A stretch of 38,867 nucleotides of DNA from a virus. The position numbers and the translations under genes are program-made. The notes beneath the pieces are model-generated. The model was not told the origin of the DNA and ran no database searches. It saw only the letters and a program-made list of their open reading frames with translations. The stretch covers positions 1-38,867 of IMG/VR virus record IMGVR_UViG_3300035168_000132, one strand, 5' to 3'. Positions 22,390 to 38,867 of the stretch are shown in pieces. How positions within the stretch are numbered: the first letter of the stretch is position 1; every line of letters starts with the position of its first letter.

Positions 22390-23607
22390 TTATGTTGCAA
22401 GACCTGTAACGACACCTTGGAAGCTAGGGATGATGTAGTTCTGGTAGTAACCACCGTAGCGAGCTGCATAAGCATCACCTGAGGTTCTCAAGAACACTGT
22501 TCCATCATCATCAAACCAACCGAAGTCTGGTCTATGGTAAGAAGTGATGTAGTCATCATTCACGCCATAAACGCGATCTTCTGCGCACATGCGATCTGGG
22601 ATGATAGCGATCTCACCAGCGTCAGACATATAAGACAATGCCTTCCATCCAACGATACCTTTCAACTCAGGAGCACGCGCTTCGATTTGGTAAACTTTCT
22701 TGTCTTCAAGGAAGTTAGAAATCTTGCGATACTGAGTGTAAGAGGTAACAAGCTTCTTAGGAGCCTTACCGCATTTCTTTTGGATTGTGATTACAAGCTC
22801 ATTCATGATGTCTTCAGAGATACCAGCGCTTGCCGCTGCGATCTGAGTCGCCATCCAACGACGAGCCACATCAACTCCGTAAAGAGTGGAAGTAGTAGCA
22901 TCGCACACGCCTTTTAAGCCCATAGGATCATTGTCCTTAGAGTTCTGCATGTAGATGATTTTTGAAGTACCAGCGCCACCAGTTCCGAAGTCAGTTGTTC
23001 CTGAAATCTTCTCGAAAGTGACTTTGCGAAGAGTGTTATCAACCGCGATGACTTCTAGAACGTCTGCTGCTGTGCCCACGTTTACATAGTCATTTTCTTC
23101 CCAATAACCTTCTACCCAAGAAGCTGCAGTGAAAAGAGCATAAGCTGTGTCACCCACTCCAAAAGTTGTTCCGGTCACATCAACGAAATCGGCTGCTGTA
23201 GTAGTACCTAAAGCACCAGTTCCGTCACTGAAAAGAATACGAGAAGCATTTCGATTGTAGGCTTCAACGGTTTTCTCAGAAACCCATTTCATGCCATTTA
23301 CAAAAGAACCTTCATCATTAGAAGAAGCTTTTAAAGACTCACGATCAATTTCAGTAGTCGCGTAAACTTTTTTCGCTGTCAGTGTTGCTTTCACTGCTGA
23401 CGCAGGGTTTGCGGTTGGAAGAGATCCTGAACCGACACCACCTGAGAAGAAAGTCGGTACTGCTACCTTCATTTCGTCGCCGGTAAAATCGTACTGTTTT
23501 TTGATAGTACCAAGCATTGGGTTATAGGAATTGTAAGCGTTTTCGGACATCTTGCCGAATTTTGTTTTAAACAGCGCAGACGACGCCGTCAGACTCATTT
23601 GAGCCAT
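22390..23607 (-). CDS. Major capsid protein (405 aa)
   Basis: The protein has HK97-fold character: an N-terminal helix, then the KVAVPTFFSGGVGSGSLP segment (E-loop region), AKKVYATTEIDRESLKAS (spine helix area) and a C-terminal VYGVNDDYITSYHRPDFGWFDDDG segment, as in coat proteins of P22-like and related podoviruses. It follows the scaffold gene, has a strong CCGGAGG site within a hairpin leader, and is followed by a terminator, all consistent with the most abundant virion protein. Confidence 0.85.
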   Translation of the reverse strand: MAQMSLTASSALFKTKFGKMSENAYNSYNPMLGTIKKQYDFTGDEMKVAVPTFFSGGVGSGSLPTANPASAVKATLTAKKVYATTEIDRESLKASSNDEGSFVNGMKWVSEKTVEAYNRNASRILFSDGTGALGTTTAADFVDVTGTTFGVGDTAYALFTAASWVEGYWEENDYVNVGTAADVLEVIAVDNTLRKVTFEKISGTTDFGTGGAGTSKIIYMQNSKDNDPMGLKGVCDATTSTLYGVDVARRWMATQIAAASAGISEDIMNELVITIQKKCGKAPKKLVTSYTQYRKISNFLEDKKVYQIEARAPELKGIVGWKALSYMSDAGEIAIIPDRMCAEDRVYGVNDDYITSYHRPDFGWFDDDGTVFLRTSGDAYAARYGGYYQNYIIPSFQGVVTGLAT

Positions 23608-29797: not shown

Positions 29798-29881
29798 AGT
29801 TATCCTTGAATTTGTGTTTTATATTACTATCATTGTAAGAGCGAGCGCCGTTGTCGATAGTGATTATCAAAGGGGAAGTTG

Positions 29882-30193
29882 ATGGGTAAATGGGATTCTG
29901 GAATTCAAACCGATGATGATGCTCTCTTTGCTTACGGCCACCACACTGACAATCCTGTCGTTAGAAGAAAGAATTACGGTGGCTATTGTAACAGCTTTGC
30001 ATGTGTCGAGAAAATCATCGGAGATCGAAGCAGCAATCCCAATTACAAATATATGGTTTACAATGACGTTCGGGTTTTAAAGACTACCGACAAACAATAC
30101 AAGTCTTGCCCAGATTGTGGTCATGCTCTGTTTTGGGATGAGATCAGCGAAGAAATCACTCCAAAGAAGACTAGAACTAAGAAACTTCGGTAG
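29882..30193 (+). CDS. Cys-rich (zinc-binding?) protein divergent from the late operon (103 aa)
   Basis: This lone rightward gene is placed head-to-head with the virion operon. YCNSFAC and SCPDCGHALFW give four Cys in two pairs, a zinc-ribbon arrangement; the C-terminus is Lys-rich. AAAGGGGAAG precedes the ATG. Its 3' end overlaps the convergent 30177-30380 gene by 17 bp. Position suggests a regulator of late genes, but that is inference. Confidence 0.7.
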   Translation: MGKWDSGIQTDDDALFAYGHHTDNPVVRRKNYGGYCNSFACVEKIIGDRSSNPNYKYMVYNDVRVLKTTDKQYKSCPDCGHALFWDEISEEITPKKTRTKKLR

Positions 30194-30380
30194 ATTTAAT
30201 ATATTCTTTGAGGCTCTTTTTGAGAATCCTTGCCTGATAAAAAAGGCCTTGCCAATTACAATCAGGCTCACAAAAGCACCTACAGAACTTTCCGTTGCGC
30301 TCCCATCGCATTTCTATCACTTCTTCTGGAAATCCCCAACCACTTGCATCAACATGCGTTCTGAATGCTCTGAATTTCAA
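30177..30380 (-). CDS. Small Cys-rich protein (67 aa)
   Basis: CRCFCEPDCNW gives closely spaced Cys that could hold a metal. It starts with TTG at 30380 overlapping the upstream stop (TTGA), so it depends on coupled translation. It is the last gene of the lysis/nuclease cluster. No family is recognised. Confidence 0.5.
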   Translation of the reverse strand: MKFRAFRTHVDASGWGFPEEVIEMRWERNGKFCRCFCEPDCNWQGLFYQARILKKSLKEYIKSTEVS

Positions 30381-30628
30381 GATCCACTCTCTTGCAACAC
30401 ATATTCAACCGTACCATGATCATGTTGTCTCATAGTGAAGCCCTCATCTTTAAGCTGAAGCTTCATTTCGTTGGTGAAGCCCACAAGCATAGGAGCTAGG
30501 CCATCAATGTCAGTCTTCCAATGTTCAGGACGCAGCCTATGAGCATGGTTCCCAGTCACTTCGCCTTTTAAATCAAAAGAAATTATTCTTAATACAAATT
30601 CGGTTTTCACTTCTTTTTCTTCGATCAC
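30377..30628 (-). CDS. Unknown protein in lysis/nuclease cluster (83 aa)
   Basis: The predicted alternation of strands and helices (LRIISFDLKGEVTGNHAHRL) suggests a small alpha/beta fold. The GTG start at 30628 overlaps the nuclease stop by 4 bases. Function is unknown. Confidence 0.6.
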   Translation of the reverse strand: MIEEKEVKTEFVLRIISFDLKGEVTGNHAHRLRPEHWKTDIDGLAPMLVGFTNEMKLQLKDEGFTMRQHDHGTVEYVLQESGS

Positions 30629-30987
30629 TGATAATATCTCCTAATCTTCTCATCATTTGGAAAATACTTCGAAAGCTCTAGTGCCACACCACGCGCCGAC
30701 CTGGCCACAAAAGCGATGCCGCCATTATCCTGCACCATGCGTATAAATTTCCGTTGTTCATCAGTCAGGCGGCCCTTCTCAGACTTCACTTCTATCGCAA
30801 TAAAGCGGCCCCCAGGAGCAATGCCAAGAACATCAGAAACACCTGCAACACGATTAGGATTGGATGATTTTCTGTATATTTTTTTGACCGGATCAAATAT
30901 CCCAACAGAATCGTGCTTGAAACAAAATATGCCAATACCACGCAAAAAATTAAATATTTCAAGCTCAATGCGCCCTTCTGGAGTCAC
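30625..30987 (-). CDS. VRR-NUC domain nuclease (120 aa)
   Basis: This is a stand-alone VRR-NUC fold of the PD-(D/E)xK superfamily: GVSDVLGIAPGGRFIAIEVK contains the catalytic Asp (about 50) and the Glu-X-Lys pair (about 66-68), followed by GRLTDEQRKFIRMV, the family's Gln-bearing helix. Phage members act as structure-specific nucleases on branched DNA before packaging. The GTG start at 30987 overlaps the upstream small membrane gene. Confidence 0.88.
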   Translation of the reverse strand: MTPEGRIELEIFNFLRGIGIFCFKHDSVGIFDPVKKIYRKSSNPNRVAGVSDVLGIAPGGRFIAIEVKSEKGRLTDEQRKFIRMVQDNGGIAFVARSARGVALELSKYFPNDEKIRRYYQ

Positions 30988-31151
30988 TCACCCACCACCA
31001 AATAATAAGGCCAGCCAGCACTTGCCGCGCTCATGAATACCTTGCATTCAGTCTTTGTCATCGAGTGACCTGGCTCTACTTCGCATTTACCTGCGTGATA
31101 TGATCCAGTGATGAGCCAGCCAGTTAGGTAGAGATAAAGGAGTGTGGTCAT
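30984..31151 (-). CDS. Small membrane protein next to endolysin (55 aa)
   Basis: An N-terminal hydrophobic segment (TLLYLYLTGWLITG) and a second apolar stretch at the C-terminus frame a polar loop with two Cys. It starts one base after the endolysin stop. Lying between the endolysin and the nuclease, it may be a holin or release protein, though the hydrophobic segments are short. Confidence 0.55.
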   Translation of the reverse strand: MTTLLYLYLTGWLITGSYHAGKCEVEPGHSMTKTECKVFMSAASAGWPYYLVVGE

Positions 31152-31589
31152 CTATGCCTTCATCGGCCAGCGATAGCCGAGTACGCGGGCCTTATCATAT
31201 CCCGAGACATTCACGCCGTCCTGTTGGTTTCCGCCGCATCCATATTCTTTACCGTCTTTGGAATACAAATAAAAATGAACGTGCCCCATGCCGCCACCGC
31301 GATCATAAACGACAATGCATCCTGGAATCGGTTTCTCTAATTTGATGCCATAATCCAAGTAAGACCGCGCTCGAGCGCTCTTTGTAGACTTGTAATCACA
31401 CGTTTCAAGGCACCAGGTGACGAAAGATGCGCACCAAGCTACTGAGTCCTCTTTGGCAGCAAGCGAAGTTTCAGCCGCGTATTCGATCACACGTGGGTTG
31501 TTCTTTACTCCGGCAATTTCTTGCACGCCATACTCTTGGAGTGCTGTGATCAGCCATGGAACTTCGAATTTATTGAAAGTTAAAGTCAT
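31152..31589 (-). CDS. Endolysin, TIGR02594/CHAP-type peptidoglycan hydrolase (145 aa)
   Basis: The whole protein follows the TIGR02594 pattern: an opening Trp, then ALQEYGVQEIAGVKNNP, SVAWCASFVTW with the catalytic Cys (about 53), ARSYLDYG, GHVHFYL with the catalytic His, and a closing GGNQ and YRWPM. It cleaves peptide or amide bonds of the murein sacculus at the end of infection. No signal peptide is seen, so a holin-type partner is needed. GAGGTGACG precedes ATG, and it is first in its cluster behind a probable promoter. Confidence 0.9.
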   Translation of the reverse strand: MTLTFNKFEVPWLITALQEYGVQEIAGVKNNPRVIEYAAETSLAAKEDSVAWCASFVTWCLETCDYKSTKSARARSYLDYGIKLEKPIPGCIVVYDRGGGMGHVHFYLYSKDGKEYGCGGNQQDGVNVSGYDKARVLGYRWPMKA

Positions 31590-31626
31590 ATCGTCACCTC
31601 GAAGCTCAATGGTGACAGGGCATTTT

Positions 31627-31655
31627 ATTCTAATCGAATTCGAATTAATTCTGAA
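31627..31655 (-). promoter_or_regulatory. Probable lysis-cluster promoter with nested palindromes
   Basis: Read leftward, TTCAGA (31650-31655) and TAGAAT (31627-31632) are 17 bp apart. The same bases hold palindromes AATTCGAATT (31637-31646) and GAATTAATTC (31642-31651), plus outer CTAAT/ATTAG arms. Overlap of promoter and dyads suggests a repressor site, possibly for the divergent ribbon-helix-helix-like protein. Confidence 0.5.
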
Positions 31656-31720
31656 TTAGCGTGCGTTATGTTTCTAAAATTCTTCTTTGAATTTTTCTAA
31701 CTTTATTGGATGCTATCGGA

Positions 31721-31900
31721 ATGAAAAAAGTTGATTTTAAACTAAAATCAAGAGAAAAACCCGCTCCTATTAATTCGCATTATTCAATACCAATGACTGC
31801 CGAATTAAAGGCAAAGCTTTATAAGTTACCGCCAGAGCGTAATAAAATACTTCGCGAGTGTGCTGAAATGCTTGTGAAAGAAAACGAAGATAGTGTTTGA
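31721..31900 (+). CDS. Ribbon-helix-helix-like regulator candidate (59 aa)
   Basis: A basic N-terminus is followed by HYSIPMTAELKAKLYKL (strand then helix) and ILRECAEMLVKENED (second helix), the layout of Arc/CopG-type DNA-binding proteins. ATG at 31721 is chosen; the TTG at 31706 is a possible earlier start. It is divergent from the endolysin cluster, with palindromic DNA between them. Confidence 0.6.
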   Translation: MKKVDFKLKSREKPAPINSHYSIPMTAELKAKLYKLPPERNKILRECAEMLVKENEDSV

Positions 31901-32003
31901 TATTTGAGCCGCCGAGGAGATTGTCGATGGAGCGAAAGCTTAGAAGTTGATGAGAAGCCCTCAGTCCCTGGGCGCAGTTAATACAGGGTTTATTACATTT
32001 CAT

Positions 32004-32080
32004 CCCTTGGTAGCTCAGCTGGTTAGAGCGTTAGTGTAATAAGCTAAAGGTCGCAGGTTCAAGTCCTGCCCTCGGGTCCA
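32004..32080 (+). tRNA. Atypical tRNA, anticodon AAT (codon ATT, Ile)
   Basis: The cloverleaf fits well in the D-arm (GCTC/GAGC), anticodon stem (TTAGT/GCTAA), 5-base variable loop and T-arm (GCAGG-TTCAAGT-CCTGC), with CCA encoded. The anticodon loop reads GTAATAA, giving AAT, which bacteria rarely use. The acceptor stem CCCTTGG/CCTCGGG has two mismatches (positions 4-69 and 5-68). It may be a decayed or remodelled phage tRNA, or non-standard in function. Its 3' 22 bases overlap the end of the convergent 186-aa gene. Confidence 0.75.
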
Positions 32081-32619
32081 CAATCAAGAATTTCCCGGAC
32101 CTTCGCTTTAAATTCCTCATCCTCTAAATAGCAAAGCCGATACATCTTCCCATACGGCTTTACACCGGCTTTCTTAAAAGCGCACTCTTTACTCCAACCG
32201 TCCTCAAGATACGCAAGCACGATTGGCTTAAGCTCATCCCACTTTTCATCGAGTGTCATGGTCGCCCCAAGGAGCTTATCCTCATACCGCGCCAGACGCT
32301 CTTTCAAATACTTATTTTCATCTCTTAACTCAGCTATGCGCATAAGATCGGTTTCTGCGGTTGAGAGGAGGTTACGTTTTTCTTGTTCGAGTTCAATCAA
32401 CTTAAAGTTATCGTTAAAACTTTCACACGCCATGGCTTTAAGGTGGTCGTCTTGCGATTTGAATTTCGCCTGAAGCGATTCACACTTCATTTTCAGCATT
32501 GCAATCTCCGCATCACGTGAGTCAAAGCCTGCGAGGAAGGCATCGTATCGTGTCGCGCTTGTATTTAAACCTTGCTGAATTTTCATGTATTCCGAAGCCA
32601 GCGCAAATTTGGATTTCAT
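32059..32619 (-). CDS. Coiled-coil protein with C-terminal HTH-like region (186 aa)
   Basis: Residues 35-120 are long heptad-rich helices. The last 55 (AYLEDGWSKECAFKKAGVKP...EDEEFKAKVREIL) resemble the helix-turn-helix of small terminases and related phage DNA-binding proteins. It is the last gene of the right-hand early operon. The final nine codons lie antisense to the tRNA 3' end, so the natural C-terminus may have been replaced. AAAGGTCGAG precedes ATG. Confidence 0.65.
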   Translation of the reverse strand: MKSKFALASEYMKIQQGLNTSATRYDAFLAGFDSRDAEIAMLKMKCESLQAKFKSQDDHLKAMACESFNDNFKLIELEQEKRNLLSTAETDLMRIAELRDENKYLKERLARYEDKLLGATMTLDEKWDELKPIVLAYLEDGWSKECAFKKAGVKPYGKMYRLCYLEDEEFKAKVREILDCGPEGRT

Positions 32620-32810
32620 ACTCGACCTTTCAAAAACTTCTTTTTCTCTTTCGGTGTCATCTCTTCCATTAGTTCAATTTCTTCAGGTGTCAGTTTAAAC
32701 TTATTGTTGTCTTTTGGAGTTCTATAGTTGTATCTGCGCTTGGGATAATCACCAGCCATAATGCCAGACATCGCTAGAGCAGAAAAAAGAAGCACTGTAT
32801 TCTTCTTCAC
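32616..32810 (-). CDS. Small secreted protein (64 aa)
   Basis: The signal peptide MKKNTVLLFSALAMSGIMAG leads to a basic Tyr/Lys-rich mature part with PEEIELMEEMTPKEKKKFL near the end. It starts with GTG at 32810 after AGAGGTGGGG. It is exported to the periplasm in principle; role unknown. Confidence 0.6.
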   Translation of the reverse strand: MKKNTVLLFSALAMSGIMAGDYPKRRYNYRTPKDNNKFKLTPEEIELMEEMTPKEKKKFLKGRV

Positions 32811-32825
32811 TCCCCACCTCTTGCA

Positions 32826-33041
32826 TCAGTTTTGGATTTCATCATTGGATTCCTTTGGACGAATATAAACTCTCGCTTGTGATCCGAAATCATTTGATTC
32901 AATGAACCAAAGAACTTTATATACTTCATATTCAGTCTTATCGCCGATAAAACAAACGCTTTCCCCATTTCTTGGAACTTCACCAGAGAAATATACCCAT
33001 ATTGATTCATCTTCATTTCTTACAGCATGTTTATTTCTCAC
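32826..33041 (-). CDS. Unknown beta-rich protein (71 aa)
   Basis: WVYFSGEVPRNGESVCFIGD and the following strands suggest a small beta barrel. The GTG start at 33041 overlaps the upstream stop. This frame is preferred over a competing frame (32807-33016) for its protein-like composition and coupling. Confidence 0.6.
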   Translation of the reverse strand: MRNKHAVRNEDESIWVYFSGEVPRNGESVCFIGDKTEYEVYKVLWFIESNDFGSQARVYIRPKESNDEIQN

Positions 33042-33283
33042 TCACCACCGCCTTGCATGATTGATTTTAGCTCTTTATTGTAGTCTTTCAACGCTTGTAT
33101 GTGTTGATCTGGTGGGCATTCACCGCCTGGATCAAATAAATCATTCCTTTGCTCCACACACTTTGCAAGAGCTTTGCTTTGGCGGTCTATGATAGATAGA
33201 AGATCAGCAACATCTCCAATTCTGGCATCAGAGCAACTATGTTCAAATTTCTTTAATAATTCCTTATCAGCTTCACTCAGCAT
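33038..33283 (-). CDS. Unknown helical protein (81 aa)
   Basis: This is a helical, charged protein with a central VEQRNDLFDPGGECPPDQ loop. It overlaps the upstream gene by 11 bp. No family is recognised. Confidence 0.6.
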   Translation of the reverse strand: MLSEADKELLKKFEHSCSDARIGDVADLLSIIDRQSKALAKCVEQRNDLFDPGGECPPDQHIQALKDYNKELKSIMQGGGE

Positions 33284-33713
33284 TTTCGCCTCGGAGTTTT
33301 GCTAAAGTTTCTTGGGCAATTATACGGCGACTATATGAACCACCAGGCATTGAACCAACTGAAATTTTATCCAATGCCTCAATCGCAAGATCGAGTTTCT
33401 CATTAAGCTTCTTTACAATTGAAACCTCAATATAAGCTCCTTCACAGCGGTCCTGATAGCATTGCCATCCGAATTTACTCATCTCTTTCAATTCCTCATT
33501 CTCTTTTTTGAGCTGATCATAATCGGATTTCAGGCTTTGATAAATCTCTTTATAACCGTTGGCATCATATCTTAGCTGAGAGTTAATTGATCGAACGTAC
33601 TCAAGTGTATTTTTAGACTCAGGATATCTTTTAATTACACCGTCAATGTACGGACATGATAATTCTGGACCATCGCTATCAAGGGGAGATAATTCCGGCT
33701 TCACCTCACTCAT
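33273..33713 (-). CDS. Coiled-coil early protein (146 aa)
   Basis: A Pro/acidic N-terminus is followed by a coiled-coil (LKSDYDQLKKENEELKEMS, about 63-81) and a C-terminal helix pair. Similar-looking proteins are common in phage early operons without known function. Its ATG overlaps the upstream stop. Confidence 0.6.
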   Translation of the reverse strand: MSEVKPELSPLDSDGPELSCPYIDGVIKRYPESKNTLEYVRSINSQLRYDANGYKEIYQSLKSDYDQLKKENEELKEMSKFGWQCYQDRCEGAYIEVSIVKKLNEKLDLAIEALDKISVGSMPGGSYSRRIIAQETLAKLRGENAE

Positions 33714-33895
33714 TTGGAGTCCTCCTCATCCCACTCATTAACAAGATGTCCCTCACCGTTGCAATCGATATACTTAGTGGATTTTGGAGGCAACATCCCA
33801 AGATCTTCTATGAAAGAAAGAATTGTTTCAGCATTTGAGCATAAACCAGAGCCGACAAGATCATTAATATATTCAATCATCGTGCTACGTCTCAC
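33710..33895 (-). CDS. Unknown small acidic protein (61 aa)
   Basis: A pattern ETILSFIEDLGMLPP is shared with small phage proteins of unknown role. GTG at 33895 overlaps the upstream stop (GTGA); an in-frame ATG at 33880 is an alternative start. Confidence 0.55.
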   Translation of the reverse strand: MRRSTMIEYINDLVGSGLCSNAETILSFIEDLGMLPPKSTKYIDCNGEGHLVNEWDEEDSK

Positions 33896-34125
33896 CCCTC
33901 AACTCCTTTGCAGATTTCTTCGACTGTAATTATAGCGTCGCGGGCCTTCATGTCTTTGTATGCCAACAAATCTTTGGCAGAGTAATTTCCGGAATTTTGG
34001 TAATAGTCTAACGCTCTTCTCATCACTTCAGCAGCTTGGCAGAGGGCTTCTAAAGCTTTTGCTGCGGATAGTGTGCCATCAAAATCATCGGTTCTTATTT
34101 TCTCAATCAGTGCTTGCAGGCTCAT
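33892..34125 (-). CDS. Unknown helical protein (77 aa)
   Basis: Almost entirely helical, with AAKALEALCQAAEVMRRAL in the centre. The ATG overlaps the stop of the small membrane gene upstream (ATGA). No family is assigned. Confidence 0.6.
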   Translation of the reverse strand: MSLQALIEKIRTDDFDGTLSAAKALEALCQAAEVMRRALDYYQNSGNYSAKDLLAYKDMKARDAIITVEEICKGVEG

Positions 34126-34268
34126 TTTTCACTCTTCATTTCTTTAATTGCTTCTTTCACAGCTTGTTTTTTTAAATAAAAATCAGCTTCAAAGCCTATG
34201 TATGAGAAGAAAAAAATTACAGATAAAATAAATCCGTAATACAAAATATTTAATATGATATTTCTCAT
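34122..34268 (-). CDS. Small membrane protein (48 aa)
   Basis: One N-terminal transmembrane helix (about 3-22) is followed by a Lys/Glu-rich cytoplasmic-type tail. GAGGTGAGAGA precedes ATG at 34268, one of the recurrent leaders of this operon. It is tightly coupled to both neighbours. Confidence 0.6.
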   Translation of the reverse strand: MRNIILNILYYGFILSVIFFFSYIGFEADFYLKKQAVKEAIKEMKSEK

Positions 34269-34375
34269 TCTCTCACCTCAAAAAATCGGGAATGCAGCAC
34301 CTTGAACACTTTCCCGGTACATTTCTGCCCAGGAGGGCACTTGGGTTCAAGTTCAGTCTTAGCCCCCGAACCTAT
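34266..34375 (-). other. Open frame without a normal start codon
   Basis: Between 34376 and the TGA at 34266 a leftward frame stays open and reads like protein, with a CPPGQKCTGKVFKV knuckle that resembles half a zinc site. It lacks an in-frame ATG or a GTG/TTG near its 5' end; the first possible codons follow a TAG at 34376-34378. The stop overlaps the next ATG (ATGA), as for real genes here. It may be a gene remnant or a frameshifted small gene. Confidence 0.3.
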
Positions 34376-34396
34376 CTACATCCCCGAAGGAATTAA

Positions 34397-34618
34397 TTAC
34401 TCTGGTTTCGTATGAATTGCGATTGCAGCGTTGGCCCACATCTTCACAGCTTGAAGATTCGTCAATGCCGTTGCTTTCTCTCGACTCTCTGGACACTCAT
34501 CATTGATTAGCTGAGCCAGCTCTTTCACTTTATTTCTAACAGCAATGTACTTTGGAAGTGTTACAGGAGTTGTCTCTCTGAAAGGTCCAAATGCTTCGTC
34601 CAATTGTTCTTGTGTCAT
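34397..34618 (-). CDS. Acb2/Tad1-hairpin family protein, probable anti-CBASS/Thoeris sponge (73 aa)
   Basis: The conserved helical hairpin is plain: an N-terminal F-x-P stretch, KYIAVRNKVKELAQLIND, ECPESREKATALTNLQ and a closing KMWANAAIAI, the pattern shared by Acb2-type (T4 Vs.4-like) proteins and the C-terminus of Tad1. Known members form hexamers that bind cyclic nucleotides or gcADPR signals made by CBASS and Thoeris systems and so prevent abortive infection. Length suits Acb2, without the extra Tad1 domain. AAGGAGAGAAGT precedes ATG. Its ligand cannot be read from sequence. Confidence 0.75.
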   Translation of the reverse strand: MTQEQLDEAFGPFRETTPVTLPKYIAVRNKVKELAQLINDECPESREKATALTNLQAVKMWANAAIAIHTKPE

Positions 34619-34647
34619 ACTTCTCTCCTTGCCTCTCGGCGGTTAAT

Positions 34648-34929
34648 TTACTCAGCTACTGCAACTCTCTCAGATTTTGCCATACTCTCTTTTTCAACTG
34701 ATTCGACAGCGTTTTCAATTTCTCGCTTTGCTTGCCAAAGTCTATCTTCACCGTAACCAATGCTTTGGTTTTTAGGCGTAATTGATTCTATCAGTGTTAA
34801 AAAGCGATTGATCGCTGTGTTTTCAATTCTGAGCATTTTGTTTTCTTGGCGTAAATTCTCTACTTCTTTGGTTAAATACTCAACGCATCCAACGCTTACT
34901 TCTATTTTTGCATCTAAATTTAGCTTCAC
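34648..34929 (-). CDS. Coiled-coil early protein (93 aa)
   Basis: A heptad helix EYLTKEVENLRQENKMLRIE (about 18-37) dominates, with an amphipathic C-terminus. It starts with GTG at 34929 behind AAGGAGAGAAGT, the same leader as the neighbouring Acb2-like gene. Function is unknown. Confidence 0.6.
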   Translation of the reverse strand: MKLNLDAKIEVSVGCVEYLTKEVENLRQENKMLRIENTAINRFLTLIESITPKNQSIGYGEDRLWQAKREIENAVESVEKESMAKSERVAVAE

Positions 34930-34958
34930 ACTTCTCTCCTTCGCGCTTAGCGCTTTAG

Positions 34959-35585
34959 TTATTTCCGATAATACCGAATCATTTCAGTGATTATTTTCTT
35001 GTTAAGTTTAAACTCCGATTCATCCCATTGCGATGTGCAATCTTTTAGCTCAAACTTATTCAATTCCTCGAAAGTCATCTTGCGACAACCCCATACAACG
35101 TGATCGTCGAAGATAGTGATAAAATATTTAGTGTTAACGACTTGCAATGGAGTGAATTTAAAACCAACCGCAGAGCGTAGGTCAGCAGAGCGTAGATCAG
35201 CAGAGCTTAGGTCAGCAAAGCGTAGGTTAGCAGAGCTTAGGTCAGCAGAGCGTAGGTTAGCAGAGCTTAGGTTAGCAGAGCTTAGGTCAACAAAGCGTAG
35301 GTTAGCAGAGCTTAGGTTAGCAAAGCTTAGGTCAACAAAGCGTAGGTTAGCAGAGCTTAGGTTAGCAGAGCTTAGGTCAACAAAGCGTAGGTTAGCAGAG
35401 CTTAGGTTAGCAAAGCTTAGGTCAACAAAGCGTAGGTTAGCAGAGCTTAGGTCAGCAGAGCTTAGGTTAGCAGAGCTTAGGTTAGCAGAGCTTAGGTTAG
35501 CTCTTTCGCCACCCTCTTCATTTCTTAACCACTTGCCGTGTTTGTCGAGTATGTCTTTTAACTCTTGTTCTGATATTATTCTCAC
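34959..35585 (-). CDS. Pentapeptide-repeat protein (208 aa)
   Basis: After a 28-residue N-terminal helix region ending WLRNEEGGERANL come about 22 consecutive A(N/D)LxS-type pentapeptides (about 29-140), which form a right-handed square beta-helix. The C-terminal 65 residues (VVNTKYFITIFDDHVVWGCRKMTFEEL) are a separate domain common in phage members. Some pentapeptide proteins mimic DNA and bind gyrase; others are of unknown role. The GTG start follows the upstream TAG directly. Confidence 0.9.
   Translation of the reverse strand: MRIISEQELKDILDKHGKWLRNEEGGERANLSSANLSSANLSSADLSSANLRFVDLSFANLSSANLRFVDLSSANLSSANLRFVDLSFANLSSANLRFVDLSSANLSSANLRSADLSSANLRFADLSSADLRSADLRSAVGFKFTPLQVVNTKYFITIFDDHVVWGCRKMTFEELNKFELKDCTSQWDESEFKLNKKIITEMIRYYRK
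35284..35463. repeat. Four 45-bp tandem units inside the pentapeptide gene
   Basis: The unit of three pentapeptide codon blocks begins aggtcaacaaagcgt at 35284, 35329, 35374 and 35419. Copies differ at one to two bases. The wider tract of single 15-bp units spans about 35160-35505. Such sameness at DNA level points to recent slippage or recombination. Confidence 0.85.
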
Positions 35586-35864
35586 CTACCCCTCCCAATC
35601 AGGGAAAAGCTTGTGTTTGAGATATGTACTAAATTTCATATTGGTCACGGTTCCAATCCACTCATCATGAATTTCTTCTAGTCTACTCGGCGTAATGCTC
35701 ACGGATGGCTCAGGCAGTGGGACTTCGAAGGTGACTTTACAAGGAATCAATTTCCAACCTGCATCTAAGCGATAGTCCTTGTCGTGCCTGTAAACATCCC
35801 AAGTCTCTCCGGTCACTTCGTTAATGGAAATGAATCTCTCGAGTGTGATTGTTTTCGTTTTCAT
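35586..35864 (-). CDS. Unknown early protein (92 aa)
   Basis: The start MKTKTITLERFISINEVTGETWDVY suggests beta strands; the rest is mixed with a conserved-looking PEPSVSITPSRLEEI stretch. No family is known to me. GGAGAATT lies before ATG. Confidence 0.6.
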   Translation of the reverse strand: MKTKTITLERFISINEVTGETWDVYRHDKDYRLDAGWKLIPCKVTFEVPLPEPSVSITPSRLEEIHDEWIGTVTNMKFSTYLKHKLFPDWEG

Positions 35865-35897
35865 AATTCTCCTCTAAATTTTCCTACCTTAGCTGCG

Positions 35898-35969
35898 TTA
35901 TGCGTCGCTATTCTCTTCCGTTTTTGCCGGGGATGTGGTTGGGGGATCAATCAATTTTACTACGCTCAT
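35898..35969 (-). CDS. Tiny ORF with a tail repeated in a nearby gene (23 aa)
   Basis: ATG at 35969 overlaps the upstream stop (ATGA). The last 12 residues (TTSPAKTEENSD) match the C-terminus of the 82-aa gene at 36498 (TTSTAKTEENSG), and the DNA under both is a 35-bp repeat with three differences. It may be a duplicated fragment rather than a working gene. Confidence 0.35.
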   Translation of the reverse strand: MSVVKLIDPPTTSPAKTEENSDA

Positions 35970-36115
35970 TTAAACACCACTAAAATAATTAAGCAGACCA
36001 ATAAAATCAAAATTGCTAAATTAGCAACACCTTGCGCCCTATTAAAAGCCTGAAACCCCTTAAGATCAGCAATGACAGCTTGCTGCCAGCGACGTTCTTC
36101 TGAATTTGAATCCAT
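35966..36115 (-). CDS. Small membrane protein (49 aa)
   Basis: A polar 28-residue N-terminal part is followed by a C-terminal transmembrane helix (ANLAILILLVCLIILVVF). ATG at 36115 follows AAAGGAGTGAGAGAT, so the longer frame to 36214 is not used. It is a tail-anchored type of membrane protein. Confidence 0.65.
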   Translation of the reverse strand: MDSNSEERRWQQAVIADLKGFQAFNRAQGVANLAILILLVCLIILVVFK

Positions 36116-36128
36116 ATCTCTCACTCCT

Positions 36129-36377
36129 TTAATGAATCTTATGTGCTGGCTGATTTTCGCTTTTGAAAACCCGGCCCTGAAGTATCTGTTTCGCCGCAAG
36201 TATGTAGCAATCACAACAAAGGTCTCTTAATTCTTTTTCAGATAATTGCATCCAAGTATCATTCTTTGGCTCAAACACTTCGTCATCGAGAGCGCCATGC
36301 AAGAAACCAATACATGCGTCTTTACTGAGGCGTTCAAATACTTTTCTCGATTCAATCCATACATCTTGATTTCTCAC
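36129..36377 (-). CDS. Unknown early protein (82 aa)
   Basis: This is a helical protein with four Cys, including LCCDCYILA. GTG start at 36377 behind AAAGGAGCGAGAGA. No family is recognised. Confidence 0.6.
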   Translation of the reverse strand: MRNQDVWIESRKVFERLSKDACIGFLHGALDDEVFEPKNDTWMQLSEKELRDLCCDCYILAAKQILQGRVFKSENQPAHKIH

Positions 36378-36389
36378 TCTCTCGCTCCT

Positions 36390-36488
36390 TTAAAAAAATA
36401 ACCAATGCCATTTGAAACCAGTTTCGCTTTCAACAATTTGTGTTTTTAATTCAAAGCCAAAATCTGGAAAGTTATCTTTTATTTTCAT
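36390..36488 (-). CDS. Small ORF (32 aa)
   Basis: A 32-residue frame starts at ATG 36488 behind AAAGGATAA, ends 12 bp before the next gene, and fills the gap neatly. It has aromatic residues near the C-terminus (FKWHWLFF). Function is unknown. Confidence 0.45.
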   Translation of the reverse strand: MKIKDNFPDFGFELKTQIVESETGFKWHWLFF

Positions 36489-36497
36489 ATTTATCCT

Positions 36498-36746
36498 TTA
36501 TATGCCGCTATTCTCTTCCGTTTTCGCGGTGGATGTGGTTAGCCGTTTTTCAGTTTGAACTATTGCAGGCAAATAAAATCGAGAAAACATTAAGTTTATA
36601 ACTCGACCGCATAAGAGCCATGCTTGTTGTTCATTTATCGGTCCGAAAGCTTCTCGCAAAACCATATCAATCTTGTTAGCGGTCTCAAGAACTAAAAGTT
36701 TTGCCTCTTCGGATTCGACTTTGCGCTTTGTTATTTCTTCACTCAC
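36498..36746 (-). CDS. Unknown helical protein (82 aa)
   Basis: A Lys/Glu-rich start leads into two helices with INEQQAWLLCGRVINLMF. The C-terminal tail shares a 35-bp repeat with 35906-35940. GTG at 36746 sits in the AAGGAGCGAGAGA leader. Confidence 0.6.
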   Translation of the reverse strand: MSEEITKRKVESEEAKLLVLETANKIDMVLREAFGPINEQQAWLLCGRVINLMFSRFYLPAIVQTEKRLTTSTAKTEENSGI

Positions 36747-36776
36747 TCTCTCGCTCCTTGGTCATGTTTTGTCAGG

Positions 36777-37055
36777 TTAAAGATATCTCACCCACAACAT
36801 TTCATATTCTTCTTTTTCAATGATTATTCCGATGTCAGCGTCTTGAGAAAAGACATGTGTCGCTCCCGCTGAATAGGCTCTGCTTAAAAAAGATTCATCA
36901 GTCTCGCCCTCATTACAGCAACAAACGATCCAATAGCCTTGCCGTGCGTATTGGCCTATAACTTTGTTGGATACATTTACATCAAATGCCAATCTGCTTA
37001 ATTCCGGTAATTCCTGAGTGACGTTGTTGGTGGTCGTCATTATCGAAGTGCTCAT
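36777..37055 (-). CDS. PIN-like (DUF5615-type) domain protein (92 aa)
   Basis: From residue about 23 the pattern AFDVNVSNKVIGQYARQGYW is followed by DESFLSRAYSAGATHVFSQD and ADIGIIIEKEEYEML. It parallels PIN-like proteins, in which an N-terminal Asp, a TDE/D segment and the final SQDxD form an acidic metal site. Several such proteins are toxins of toxin-antitoxin pairs or predicted RNases. No obvious antitoxin adjoins it. The resemblance is by pattern only. AGGGGG precedes ATG. Confidence 0.5.
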   Translation of the reverse strand: MSTSIMTTTNNVTQELPELSRLAFDVNVSNKVIGQYARQGYWIVCCCNEGETDESFLSRAYSAGATHVFSQDADIGIIIEKEEYEMLWVRYL

Positions 37056-37071
37056 GCCCCCTGTCCTTTCG

Positions 37072-37326
37072 CTAAAGCGTTTCTAACTCTTTACTGAGTT
37101 TCAGCAACATGTCCTTGGTCATTTTTTCGAAATTCTGAAGTGCAATTTTTAAACCGTAATAAGTTTCAGGATCAGTCGCTTTGATTTCTTTCATCAGATG
37201 TGGCGCTATAAGGATTACGAGTGATTGTAAGCCAAAGTTATTTATCAACTTCATACACTCCTTCGCCTGTTCTGAATCTTTGACTGCTTTGCTTACGCCT
37301 TCATTTGCTTTTAAAATATTATCCAC
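37072..37326 (-). CDS. Unknown helical protein (84 aa)
   Basis: This Lys/Leu/Glu-rich helical protein has an apolar centre (GLQSLVILIAPHLM). GTG start at 37326 behind AAAGGAGAGAAT. It lies downstream of the replication genes. No family is recognised. Confidence 0.6.
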   Translation of the reverse strand: MDNILKANEGVSKAVKDSEQAKECMKLINNFGLQSLVILIAPHLMKEIKATDPETYYGLKIALQNFEKMTKDMLLKLSKELETL

Positions 37327-37342
37327 ATTCTCTCCTTTGGCT

Positions 37343-37702
37343 TTACGCCTGTTTTGTTTTCGCTTTAGTCACGGCATCCCAAAGGGAATTTGCGCCGAGT
37401 TTTCTTAATTCCGATTCGTAGCCCATACCTGTCGAGTTTCTACGCAATCTTTCGAAATCAGCCGACTGCTCACTCGTGGTAAATTCTTGAGTCAACCTGC
37501 GCCTTTCAGCATTAATCAAATCACCGAGTTTCACGAATGGGTCATTTGCCGCGATGATCTTATTCACAAGCCTCTCAAACCACACAGAATCAAGCCCTTT
37601 GACTTCTTGAGCAATAGCTATGGCTTTGGTCTGGCTTGCGAATTGAGTCGGATATGCGTCTGCTAGGCGTTTGTAGATGGGATTGAATTCGGCAGGAGTC
37701 AT
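37343..37702 (-). CDS. Candidate helicase loader / lambda P-like protein (119 aa)
   Basis: This small helical protein lies directly after the replication initiator, with ATG overlap. LDSVWFERLVNKIIAANDPFVKLGDLINA recalls the 'W-x-L-x8-P-x3-L-x-F/L' pattern of phage loaders that bring DnaB to the origin (stated here as positions about 37-65). There is no Walker motif, so it is not a DnaC-type ATPase. Assignment rests mainly on position. Confidence 0.5.
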   Translation of the reverse strand: MTPAEFNPIYKRLADAYPTQFASQTKAIAIAQEVKGLDSVWFERLVNKIIAANDPFVKLGDLINAERRRLTQEFTTSEQSADFERLRRNSTGMGYESELRKLGANSLWDAVTKAKTKQA

Positions 37703-38262
37703 ACGTCTGTCCCTTCAAACACTTCCGCGCCAACTTCAAAATTTTCATCTCTCTTCTTTTTATTTATCCTATATCCTTTATCCTTTAACCTATATCCTAT
37801 GAGGGTCTGTTGACCCTCCCCTGTTTTATCTAAAGAATCGTCGAGGGTCAGGGGACCCTCTATCGAGGGTCTAAGGAGGGTCGAAAGTTTGACGACTGCA
37901 CTTTGAGCCTTGGTGTTCATTTGCACTGCATCTTTTTCAACTTCTGCAAGAACCTTCTTGGCCATGTTGATATGTGCTTTATTGGTTGACGAAAGATTTT
38001 TGAACTGCTCAAACAGGTAGCCTATTACCCAAAGCCTATCCTCGTTTATCCAATGGACTCTTTCGCTGAAATGTTTATCAAAGGCTTCGCGTGTAACCTT
38101 CCCCTTAATGTCTCTACTCATCCGAGTGAAGCTTACCTTGGCAAAGCCAGTGCCTCCATCACACTTGTCGCGGAGGTACTCCCAGACGCATTTCATGAGC
38201 GGTGGTAACTCCAGGAACCAGTCGTCATCCCACTTATCAGTATTGGTGAATCGTTTCGCCAT
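37699..38262 (-). CDS. Phage replication initiator, O-like winged-helix protein (187 aa)
   Basis: The N-terminal ~105 residues (WDDDWFLELPPLMKCVWEYL, then RLWVIGYLFEQFKNLS) match the winged-helix DNA-binding domain of many temperate-phage replication proteins. The C-terminal part is a linker and basic tail. The coding DNA for residues about 127-154 contains six GAGGGTC elements, and an AT-rich run follows, as in lambda gene O where the origin lies inside the gene. ATG at 38262 overlaps the upstream stop (TGATG). Confidence 0.75.
   Translation of the reverse strand: MAKRFTNTDKWDDDWFLELPPLMKCVWEYLRDKCDGGTGFAKVSFTRMSRDIKGKVTREAFDKHFSERVHWINEDRLWVIGYLFEQFKNLSSTNKAHINMAKKVLAEVEKDAVQMNTKAQSAVVKLSTLLRPSIEGPLTLDDSLDKTGEGQQTLIGYRLKDKGYRINKKKRDENFEVGAEVFEGTDV
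37741..37882. other. Probable replication origin: six GAGGGTC iterons and an AT-rich run
   Basis: GAGGGTC occurs at 37801, 37843, 37865 and 37876, and its complement GACCCTC at 37812 and 37854 (start positions). Two pairs form 7-4-7 dyads (37801-37818 and 37843-37860). Next to them, 37741-37800 is nearly all pyrimidine/AT with repeated CCTATATCCT, a suitable unwinding region. It lies inside the replication initiator gene. Confidence 0.7.
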
Positions 38263-38507
38263 CACTTACCCCCGCCCAAAGGCAGCAGTAACTCATCGCG
38301 TGAAACACCAAGAGCCCCGGGCATTCGCTCAAAATTCTGTGGCGAAAGAATGCGCTGATTACGGCAATTATTTAAAATGCACTGGTAGCCCACCCCGACT
38401 TGCGAGCCGAGCCATGCCAGATCTTTTTGCATGATTTCTAGGCGGTCATAGATCAGCCGAGAGTTTAATTTGTACTTATGATTCAGGTTATTTTTTTTAT
38501 ATCCCAT
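38262..38507 (-). CDS. Small HTH protein, first gene of the replication operon (81 aa)
   Basis: A basic N-terminus (MGYKKNNLNHKYKLN) is followed by an XRE-like helix-turn-helix (DLAWLGSQVGVGYQCILNNC) and a VSRDELLLP tail. It precedes the replication initiator and is nearest to attR. It may regulate the operon or take part in origin control. The ribosome site before ATG is a G-rich stretch. Confidence 0.65.
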   Translation of the reverse strand: MGYKKNNLNHKYKLNSRLIYDRLEIMQKDLAWLGSQVGVGYQCILNNCRNQRILSPQNFERMPGALGVSRDELLLPLGGGK

Positions 38508-38575
38508 ATTTCCCGCCCCCCAGCGGAAGTGCAGATTGATAAATTGGAATTGGTATTTTTTTGTTTAATGAAGAA

Positions 38576-38593
38576 TCGGGAAAAATCTCCCGA
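38576..38593. promoter_or_regulatory. Perfect 6-bp dyad upstream of the replication operon
   Basis: TCGGGA and TCCCGA flank six bases. A second dyad TTCGC/GCGAA lies at 38634-38649. Both are in the 180 bp before the first gene, where no consensus promoter is obvious, so they may be operators or part of the attachment-site complex. Confidence 0.4.
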
Positions 38594-38594
38594 A

Positions 38595-38608
38595 ACAAAT
38601 CCGAAACA
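38595..38608. repeat. Second copy of the arm-type repeat
   Basis: ACAAATCCGAAACA is identical to 1277-1290 in attL and 38829-38842 in attR. Its location about 150 bp from the core on the opposite side from int fits a P-arm integrase site. Confidence 0.5.
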
Positions 38609-38683
38609 TTCAAAACGTCGCTCTACGTGTATATTCGCGTTGAAGCGAAATATGCGAAGTCTGATTTTTGGCTCTGAAAAATG

Positions 38684-38732
38684 AAAAAAGCCTAGTAATT
38701 TCAAACCATTTAAGGCGTGTATTACTAGGCTT
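38684..38732 (-). terminator. Strong leftward terminator beside attR
   Basis: Twelve-base perfect arms (38688-38699 and 38721-38732) surround a 21-base loop and, read leftward, are followed by a T-run. On the excised circle this would end the int transcript just past attP. In the lysogen it blocks transcription entering from the right-hand chromosome. Confidence 0.75.
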
Positions 38733-38741
38733 GTAGAATAT

Positions 38742-38867
38742 AATTGGTGGTCTGTACAAGACTCTTTTGAAATTTGATTTAGACGTGTAATTACGCGCAT
38801 TTGCAAGAATCCGGCTATTAAATCCGGTACAAATCCGAAACAAGACAGAGCTTTTTGACTCATTCTG
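38742..38867. repeat. attR: right copy of the 126-bp attachment repeat
   Basis: It is identical to 1190-1315 and runs to the last base of the window, so true homology may be longer or (if the end is an assembly overlap) shorter. It includes the core-like palindrome and the AATCCG repeats. Confidence 0.85.

Follow-up and report, generated by a model that had tools for sequence, protein, structure and literature searches.

At positions 34,397–34,618 of an environmental phage sequence, on the minus strand, lies a short gene that had been predicted to encode a sponge for the signals of CBASS and Thoeris immunity. We asked whether this gene belongs to the Acb2 or the Tad1 type, which ligands its product might bind, and whether its surroundings and distribution fit such a role. 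The window analyzed, meaning the whole stretch of DNA, corresponds to one IMG/VR virus record in its entirety; it is 38,867 bases long and has a GC content of 43%.

The open reading frame

The gene and its start signal were placed as follows:

34397–34618, minus strand: gene for an Acb2-family (PF24729) hairpin protein of 73 aa, a probable cyclic-oligonucleotide sponge (Pfam, PHROG 1454, AlphaFold2)
34619–34633, minus strand: ribosome-binding stretch GGCAAGGAGAGAAGT, directly 5' of the ATG, read from the sequence

The ORF, as read from the sequence, is intact, with an ATG start, a TAA stop, and 73 codons (MTQEQLDEAFGPFRETTPVTLPKYIAVRNKVKELAQLINDECPESREKATALTNLQAVKMWANAAIAIHTKPE). AAGGAG stands 6 bases upstream of the ATG, and the ribosome-binding site was graded good to strong. 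All three motifs that the original prediction had assigned to a helical hairpin are present: KELAQLI at residues 32–38, CPESREK at residues 42–48, and MWANAAIA at residues 60–67. The stretch AAGGAGAGAAGT occurs in identical form before the start codons of this gene (34,619–34,630) and of the preceding gene (34,930–34,941), which occupies 34,648–34,929; both are on the minus strand.

Family membership

The profile search proposed as a check in the original prediction gave a match over the curated cut-off: PF24729 (Acb2/Tad1, hairpin domain) matched the 73-aa protein with 58.5 bits (E 7.8e-16; curated cut-off, 27 bits) at residues 13–67, spanning profile positions 2–57 of 58, so that the domain is covered. 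The positive control, T4 Vs.4 (T4 Acb2), scored 71.5 bits on the same profile. PHROG 1454, to which no function is assigned, also matched the protein (E 1.5e-20), both matches being far stronger than expected by chance, and all 42 members of the family alignment (A3) matched PF24729 and no further Pfam family. Conservation in this alignment is highest in one segment:

34418–34483, minus strand: second hairpin helix, REKATALT...MWANAAIA, the family's most conserved part (alignment A3)

R46, E47, A62, and N63 are invariant there, and T53, M60, and W61 are nearly invariant.

Using tblastn, relatives were identified in 226 phage records (E 0.01 or better), with the best matches in Paenibacillus larvae phages (69% identity over 45 residues), followed by those of Gordonia, Mycobacterium, Streptomyces, Lactococcus, and others; the short branch represented by PHROG 1454 is widespread among phages with Gram-positive hosts. 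When IMG/VR was scanned with an alignment, hundreds of relatives emerged, at least 535 of them confirmed, whereas a single-sequence scan of the same collection returned 0. The P. larvae phages Lily (LILY_72), Scottie (gp55), Xenia, and Vegas and the Brevibacillus phage Jenst (gp90) encode proteins of the same length class (67–71 aa where fetched), which are stand-alone hairpins with the same Pfam domain and 42–69% identity in the aligned parts; they differ at the N-terminus, where they have FxYHxP and the 73-aa protein has FGPFRETT, with one residue extra. Homologues of the 73-aa protein were located at the following positions:

L003:1441–1641, homologue
L004:1498–1710, homologue
L010:541–744, homologue

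In public phage genomes, many of the relatives carry the label hypothetical, as does the Lily copy ("hypothetical protein"), or, wrongly, phosphomannomutase, as do the Scottie and Jenst copies ("putative phosphomannomutase" in GenBank) and those of several other Paenibacillus phages. We rejected the phosphomannomutase label: 73 aa are too few for that enzyme, and PF24729 is the sole family over its cut-off.

A profile built from 11 family members and searched against the PDB matched 9ptq, "Acb2 homolog 43", with an E value of 1.2e-9, several Tad1 chains at approximately 0.008, and Vs.4 at 0.23. Homolog 43, the closest solved chain by profile, has 76 aa and shares the REK...T...E motif in an entry with six chains, but carries Thr at the position of the aromatic residue discussed below; our literature search found no paper on it. 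Profile-profile comparison with T4 Vs.4 aligned the last 19 residues only, at 46% probability. A single-sequence phmmer search against the PDB, which placed alpha-catenins on top (E 0.04) and 9ptq at 0.64, was uninformative and was replaced by the profile searches.

Judged from these sequence matches, the gene is an ordinary additional member of the already described Acb2 family, and existing knowledge of Acb2 is unchanged by this result. Acb2 annotations have already been published for Microbacterium phage Statler (PMC13348362) and for Mycobacterium phages Xandras and BigBubba (PMC11953737).

Predicted fold

AlphaFold2, run with a 42-sequence alignment, predicted helices at residues 3–10, 20–41, and 46–69 and no strand, with a mean pLDDT of 92.9. 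The layout is that of Acb2, with a short N-terminal helix followed by two long antiparallel helices and no second domain, and the Acb2-type pattern of the original prediction is thus upheld by the model as well as by the Pfam match. In a Foldseek search against the PDB, T4 Vs.4 with cGAMP ranked first (probability 0.95), although its E value of 0.76 is of a size that unrelated helical hairpins also give; VIA-align placed Vs.4 at rank 1 (Z 6.8) and PaP2 Acb2 8h2x at rank 3 (Z 6.3), amid unrelated helical hairpins of similar Z. These scores are weak in absolute terms; helical hairpins match many unrelated chains. The predicted structure agrees with the sequence matches, without being proof of kinship by itself.

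The Thoeris half of the original prediction found no support. In Tad1, the hairpin is joined to an N-terminal beta-sheet domain that sequesters gcADPR, and the pocket uses the loops of that domain (PMC12043709). Tad1 (PDB 7uav, 8kbe) does resemble the 73-aa protein in its C-terminal hairpin, with SREN...ALT...MW; the hairpins of Acb2 and Tad1 share a single Pfam domain, and the family profile matches Tad1 chains weakly, over approximately 20 residues. However, the 73-aa protein consists of the hairpin and its short leading helix, with the beta domain around the gcADPR pocket absent, and Thoeris inhibition is unlikely for that reason; we regard a Tad1-like gcADPR sponge as highly improbable.

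Pocket residues

One pair of residues corresponds to part of the dinucleotide pocket of characterized Acb2 proteins:

34535–34582, minus strand: codons F13 to R28, an aromatic-x14-basic pair equivalent to the cGAMP-contacting T4 Acb2 Y8/K23 and PaP2 Acb2 Y11/K26, with fixed spacing

The aromatic and basic residues lie 15 residues apart alike in T4 Acb2, in PaP2 Acb2, whose Y11 and K26 we take to be functional residues, and in the 73-aa protein. In a set of 73 unique short relatives, 71 carry R at the conserved basic position, and the site 15 residues ahead of it is occupied by Y (70 relatives), F (2), or N (1). In the VIA-align rows for 7uq2_B, 8h2x_F, and 8h2j_B, the first aligned residues match F13 to Y8 or Y11, provided that there is no early gap; the family HMM likewise pairs F13 with the conserved Y and inserts one extra residue ahead of it, at a site uncertain by one position.

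T4 Vs.4 is a hexamer that holds three cGAMP molecules with a Kd of approximately 30 nM; in its crystal structure with cGAMP, base stacking involves Y8 and F82, and hydrogen bonds or salt bridges are made by Y8, H11, K23, and R79 (PMC10097602). Acb2 Y8A does not activate Panoptes in cells, and loss of cyclic-dinucleotide binding was reported for it in earlier work (PMC12657218). The 73-aa protein resembles T4 Vs.4 (PDB 7uq2) in its Pfam domain, the aromatic-x14-basic pair, and the short N-terminal helix of its predicted fold, whereas the T4 hairpin is longer by approximately 19 residues and the H11, R79, and F82 contacts are not kept, with T16, A64, and A67 at these positions according to spacing and alignment. 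The Lily protein and other close relatives likewise have alanine at the R79 and F82 positions. PaP2 Acb2 (p26 of a Pseudomonas phage; PDB 8h2x, 8h2j), a proven sponge, has R at the T4 R79 position, A at the F82 position, and L at the H11 position; it thus shares with the 73-aa protein the alanine at F82 as well as the pair spacing, but differs in its longer hairpin, its C-terminal arginine, and low overall identity. As PaP2 Acb2 retains only the arginine of these three residues, this set of contacts is a trait of T4 and not fixed for the family. With the F13/R28 pair kept and A64/A67 replacing R79/F82, half of the dinucleotide pocket is recognizable by sequence comparison and half is not.

The altered half of the pocket raises the possibility of an Acb2 fold that binds something other than a CBASS dinucleotide, be it mainly cyclic trinucleotides at the three-fold site or a different nucleotide signal. 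Such a shift would be consistent with the loss of the R79, F82, and H11 equivalents, with the invariance or near-invariance of R46, E47, and T53 on the hairpin helix, with the separate di- and trinucleotide sites of characterized Acb2 (PMC12043709), and with the assignment of T4-type homologues to PHROG 717 as opposed to PHROG 1454. On the other hand, the dinucleotide pocket keeps its aromatic-x14-basic pair, and PaP2 Acb2 likewise has no equivalents of F82 and H11, and we consider a non-dinucleotide ligand unlikely.

The N-terminal motif differs from that of the relatives. FxYH, near-invariant among them, reads FGPFRE with one extra residue in the 73-aa protein, and H occupies the position of its R in 72 of the 73 unique relatives; FGPFR is a naturally occurring, modest variation in a pocket motif that is otherwise rigid. 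The same change would be expected of a decayed or repurposed member that kept the fold but lost the pocket and no longer sequesters signals, and a mutation reported in phage T2 Acb2, which the authors of that study linked to Panoptes pressure, probably disrupts the dinucleotide site (PMC12657218). However, the ORF is intact and has a strong ribosome-binding site, the aromatic F13 still stands exactly 15 residues ahead of R28, and the second helix is well conserved, all of which make decay very improbable. It is conceivable, though we would not expect it, that the PHROG-1454 short branch, which does not have the T4 R79/F82 contacts, is tuned to a different set of signals, and that the FGPFRE pocket lip marks a further shift in specificity from the ligands of its relatives, for example in evading decoys such as Panoptes.

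Proposed mode of action

The reading we prefer, and consider likely, is that the gene encodes an Acb2-type sponge, a hexamer that sequesters the cyclic nucleotides of CD-NTases and keeps the CBASS effector from being activated. The sequence data provide good support for this reading through the intact ORF with its ribosome-binding site, membership in the family, the monomer model, the F13/R28 pair, and the patchy occurrence in the lineage, while we infer the hexamer, ligand binding, and CBASS inhibition from the characterized relatives T4 and PaP2 Acb2. As in T4 Vs.4 and PaP2 Acb2, the 73-aa protomers, each with a short N-terminal helix and an antiparallel hairpin, would assemble into a hexamer, in which F13 may stack on a base and R28 may contact a phosphate or ribose in the pockets between protomers. 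The ligand site could comprise these pockets, the three-fold channel along the hairpin helices, or both, and the ligands would be cyclic di- or trinucleotides made by the host CD-NTase. The signal would be bound stoichiometrically and left uncut, the CBASS effector would stay off, and the phage could complete its cycle.

Distribution and genomic surroundings

The record encodes a tyrosine integrase, RecT, RecE-type genes, an SU10-type major capsid protein, a terminase, and a CHAP-domain lysin. The phage is likely temperate because an integrase is present, but the prophage setting of the original prediction is not evident from the record, which shows no host flank and has no terminal repeats of at least 12 bases. 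The SU10-type capsid protein (22,390–23,607, minus strand) is related to 140 proteins in IMG/VR, of which the nearest stands at 84%, but none of 50,697 named phage records gave a match. The lineage is one of common environmental phages with very few named relatives, to which a rarely carried candidate CBASS sponge is now added.

Comparison by tblastn with stretches of four related phages showed that the structural genes are shared with the record. Genes above approximately 29.8 kb had no match in these stretches, except for a pentapeptide-repeat gene in G002, and form a block of their own:

29800–38867, minus strand: small-gene block holding the Acb2-like gene, most genes without a family match; accessory (tblastn against four related phages)

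PF24729 was found in 1 of 43 related records, which may be fragments, so that absence is not proof. Among the 25 related records of at least 30 kb, G003 alone carries the domain, at a different place and in a far diverged form (23.8 bits on the short-family profile, against 89.5 for the 73-aa protein). The closest relative, G001, had no PF24729 within the 38 kb searched, and a weak protein match of 14.6 bits, which lies within a 491-aa frame of G002, was taken as chance. Because the gene is rare in relatives and the G003 copy is both distant and located elsewhere, it is accessory in its lineage and was probably gained on its own; such patchy presence, seen in the sequences compared, fits an accessory anti-defence gene.

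Regarding the host, a portal scan of GTDB genomes found nothing. An MCP-profile scan matched three MAG contigs labelled Bacteroidetes, Epsilonproteobacteria, and Alphaproteobacteria, which gave no PF24729 signal in a scan whose controls likewise gave none.

The suggestion that neighbouring small genes become anti-defence candidates amounts to guilt by association: no scanned neighbour matched a defence or anti-defence family in Pfam, PHROGs, NCBIfam, or PADLOC. Adjoining the Acb2-like gene is a pentapeptide-repeat protein gene (PF00805; 34,959–35,585, minus strand), with a 65%-identical relative in G002, whose repetitive DNA produces a long spurious ORF on the opposite strand (35,116–35,670). 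A VRR-NUC domain nuclease (PF08774, E 8.5e-11) is encoded at 30,625–30,987 on the minus strand. ARAGORN reported a tRNA-Ile with anticodon AAT at 32,004–32,080 on the plus strand, opposite to the genes and overlapping the ORF at 32,059–32,619; this anticodon is unusual for bacteria, and the tRNA is perhaps spurious or the remnant of an integration site.
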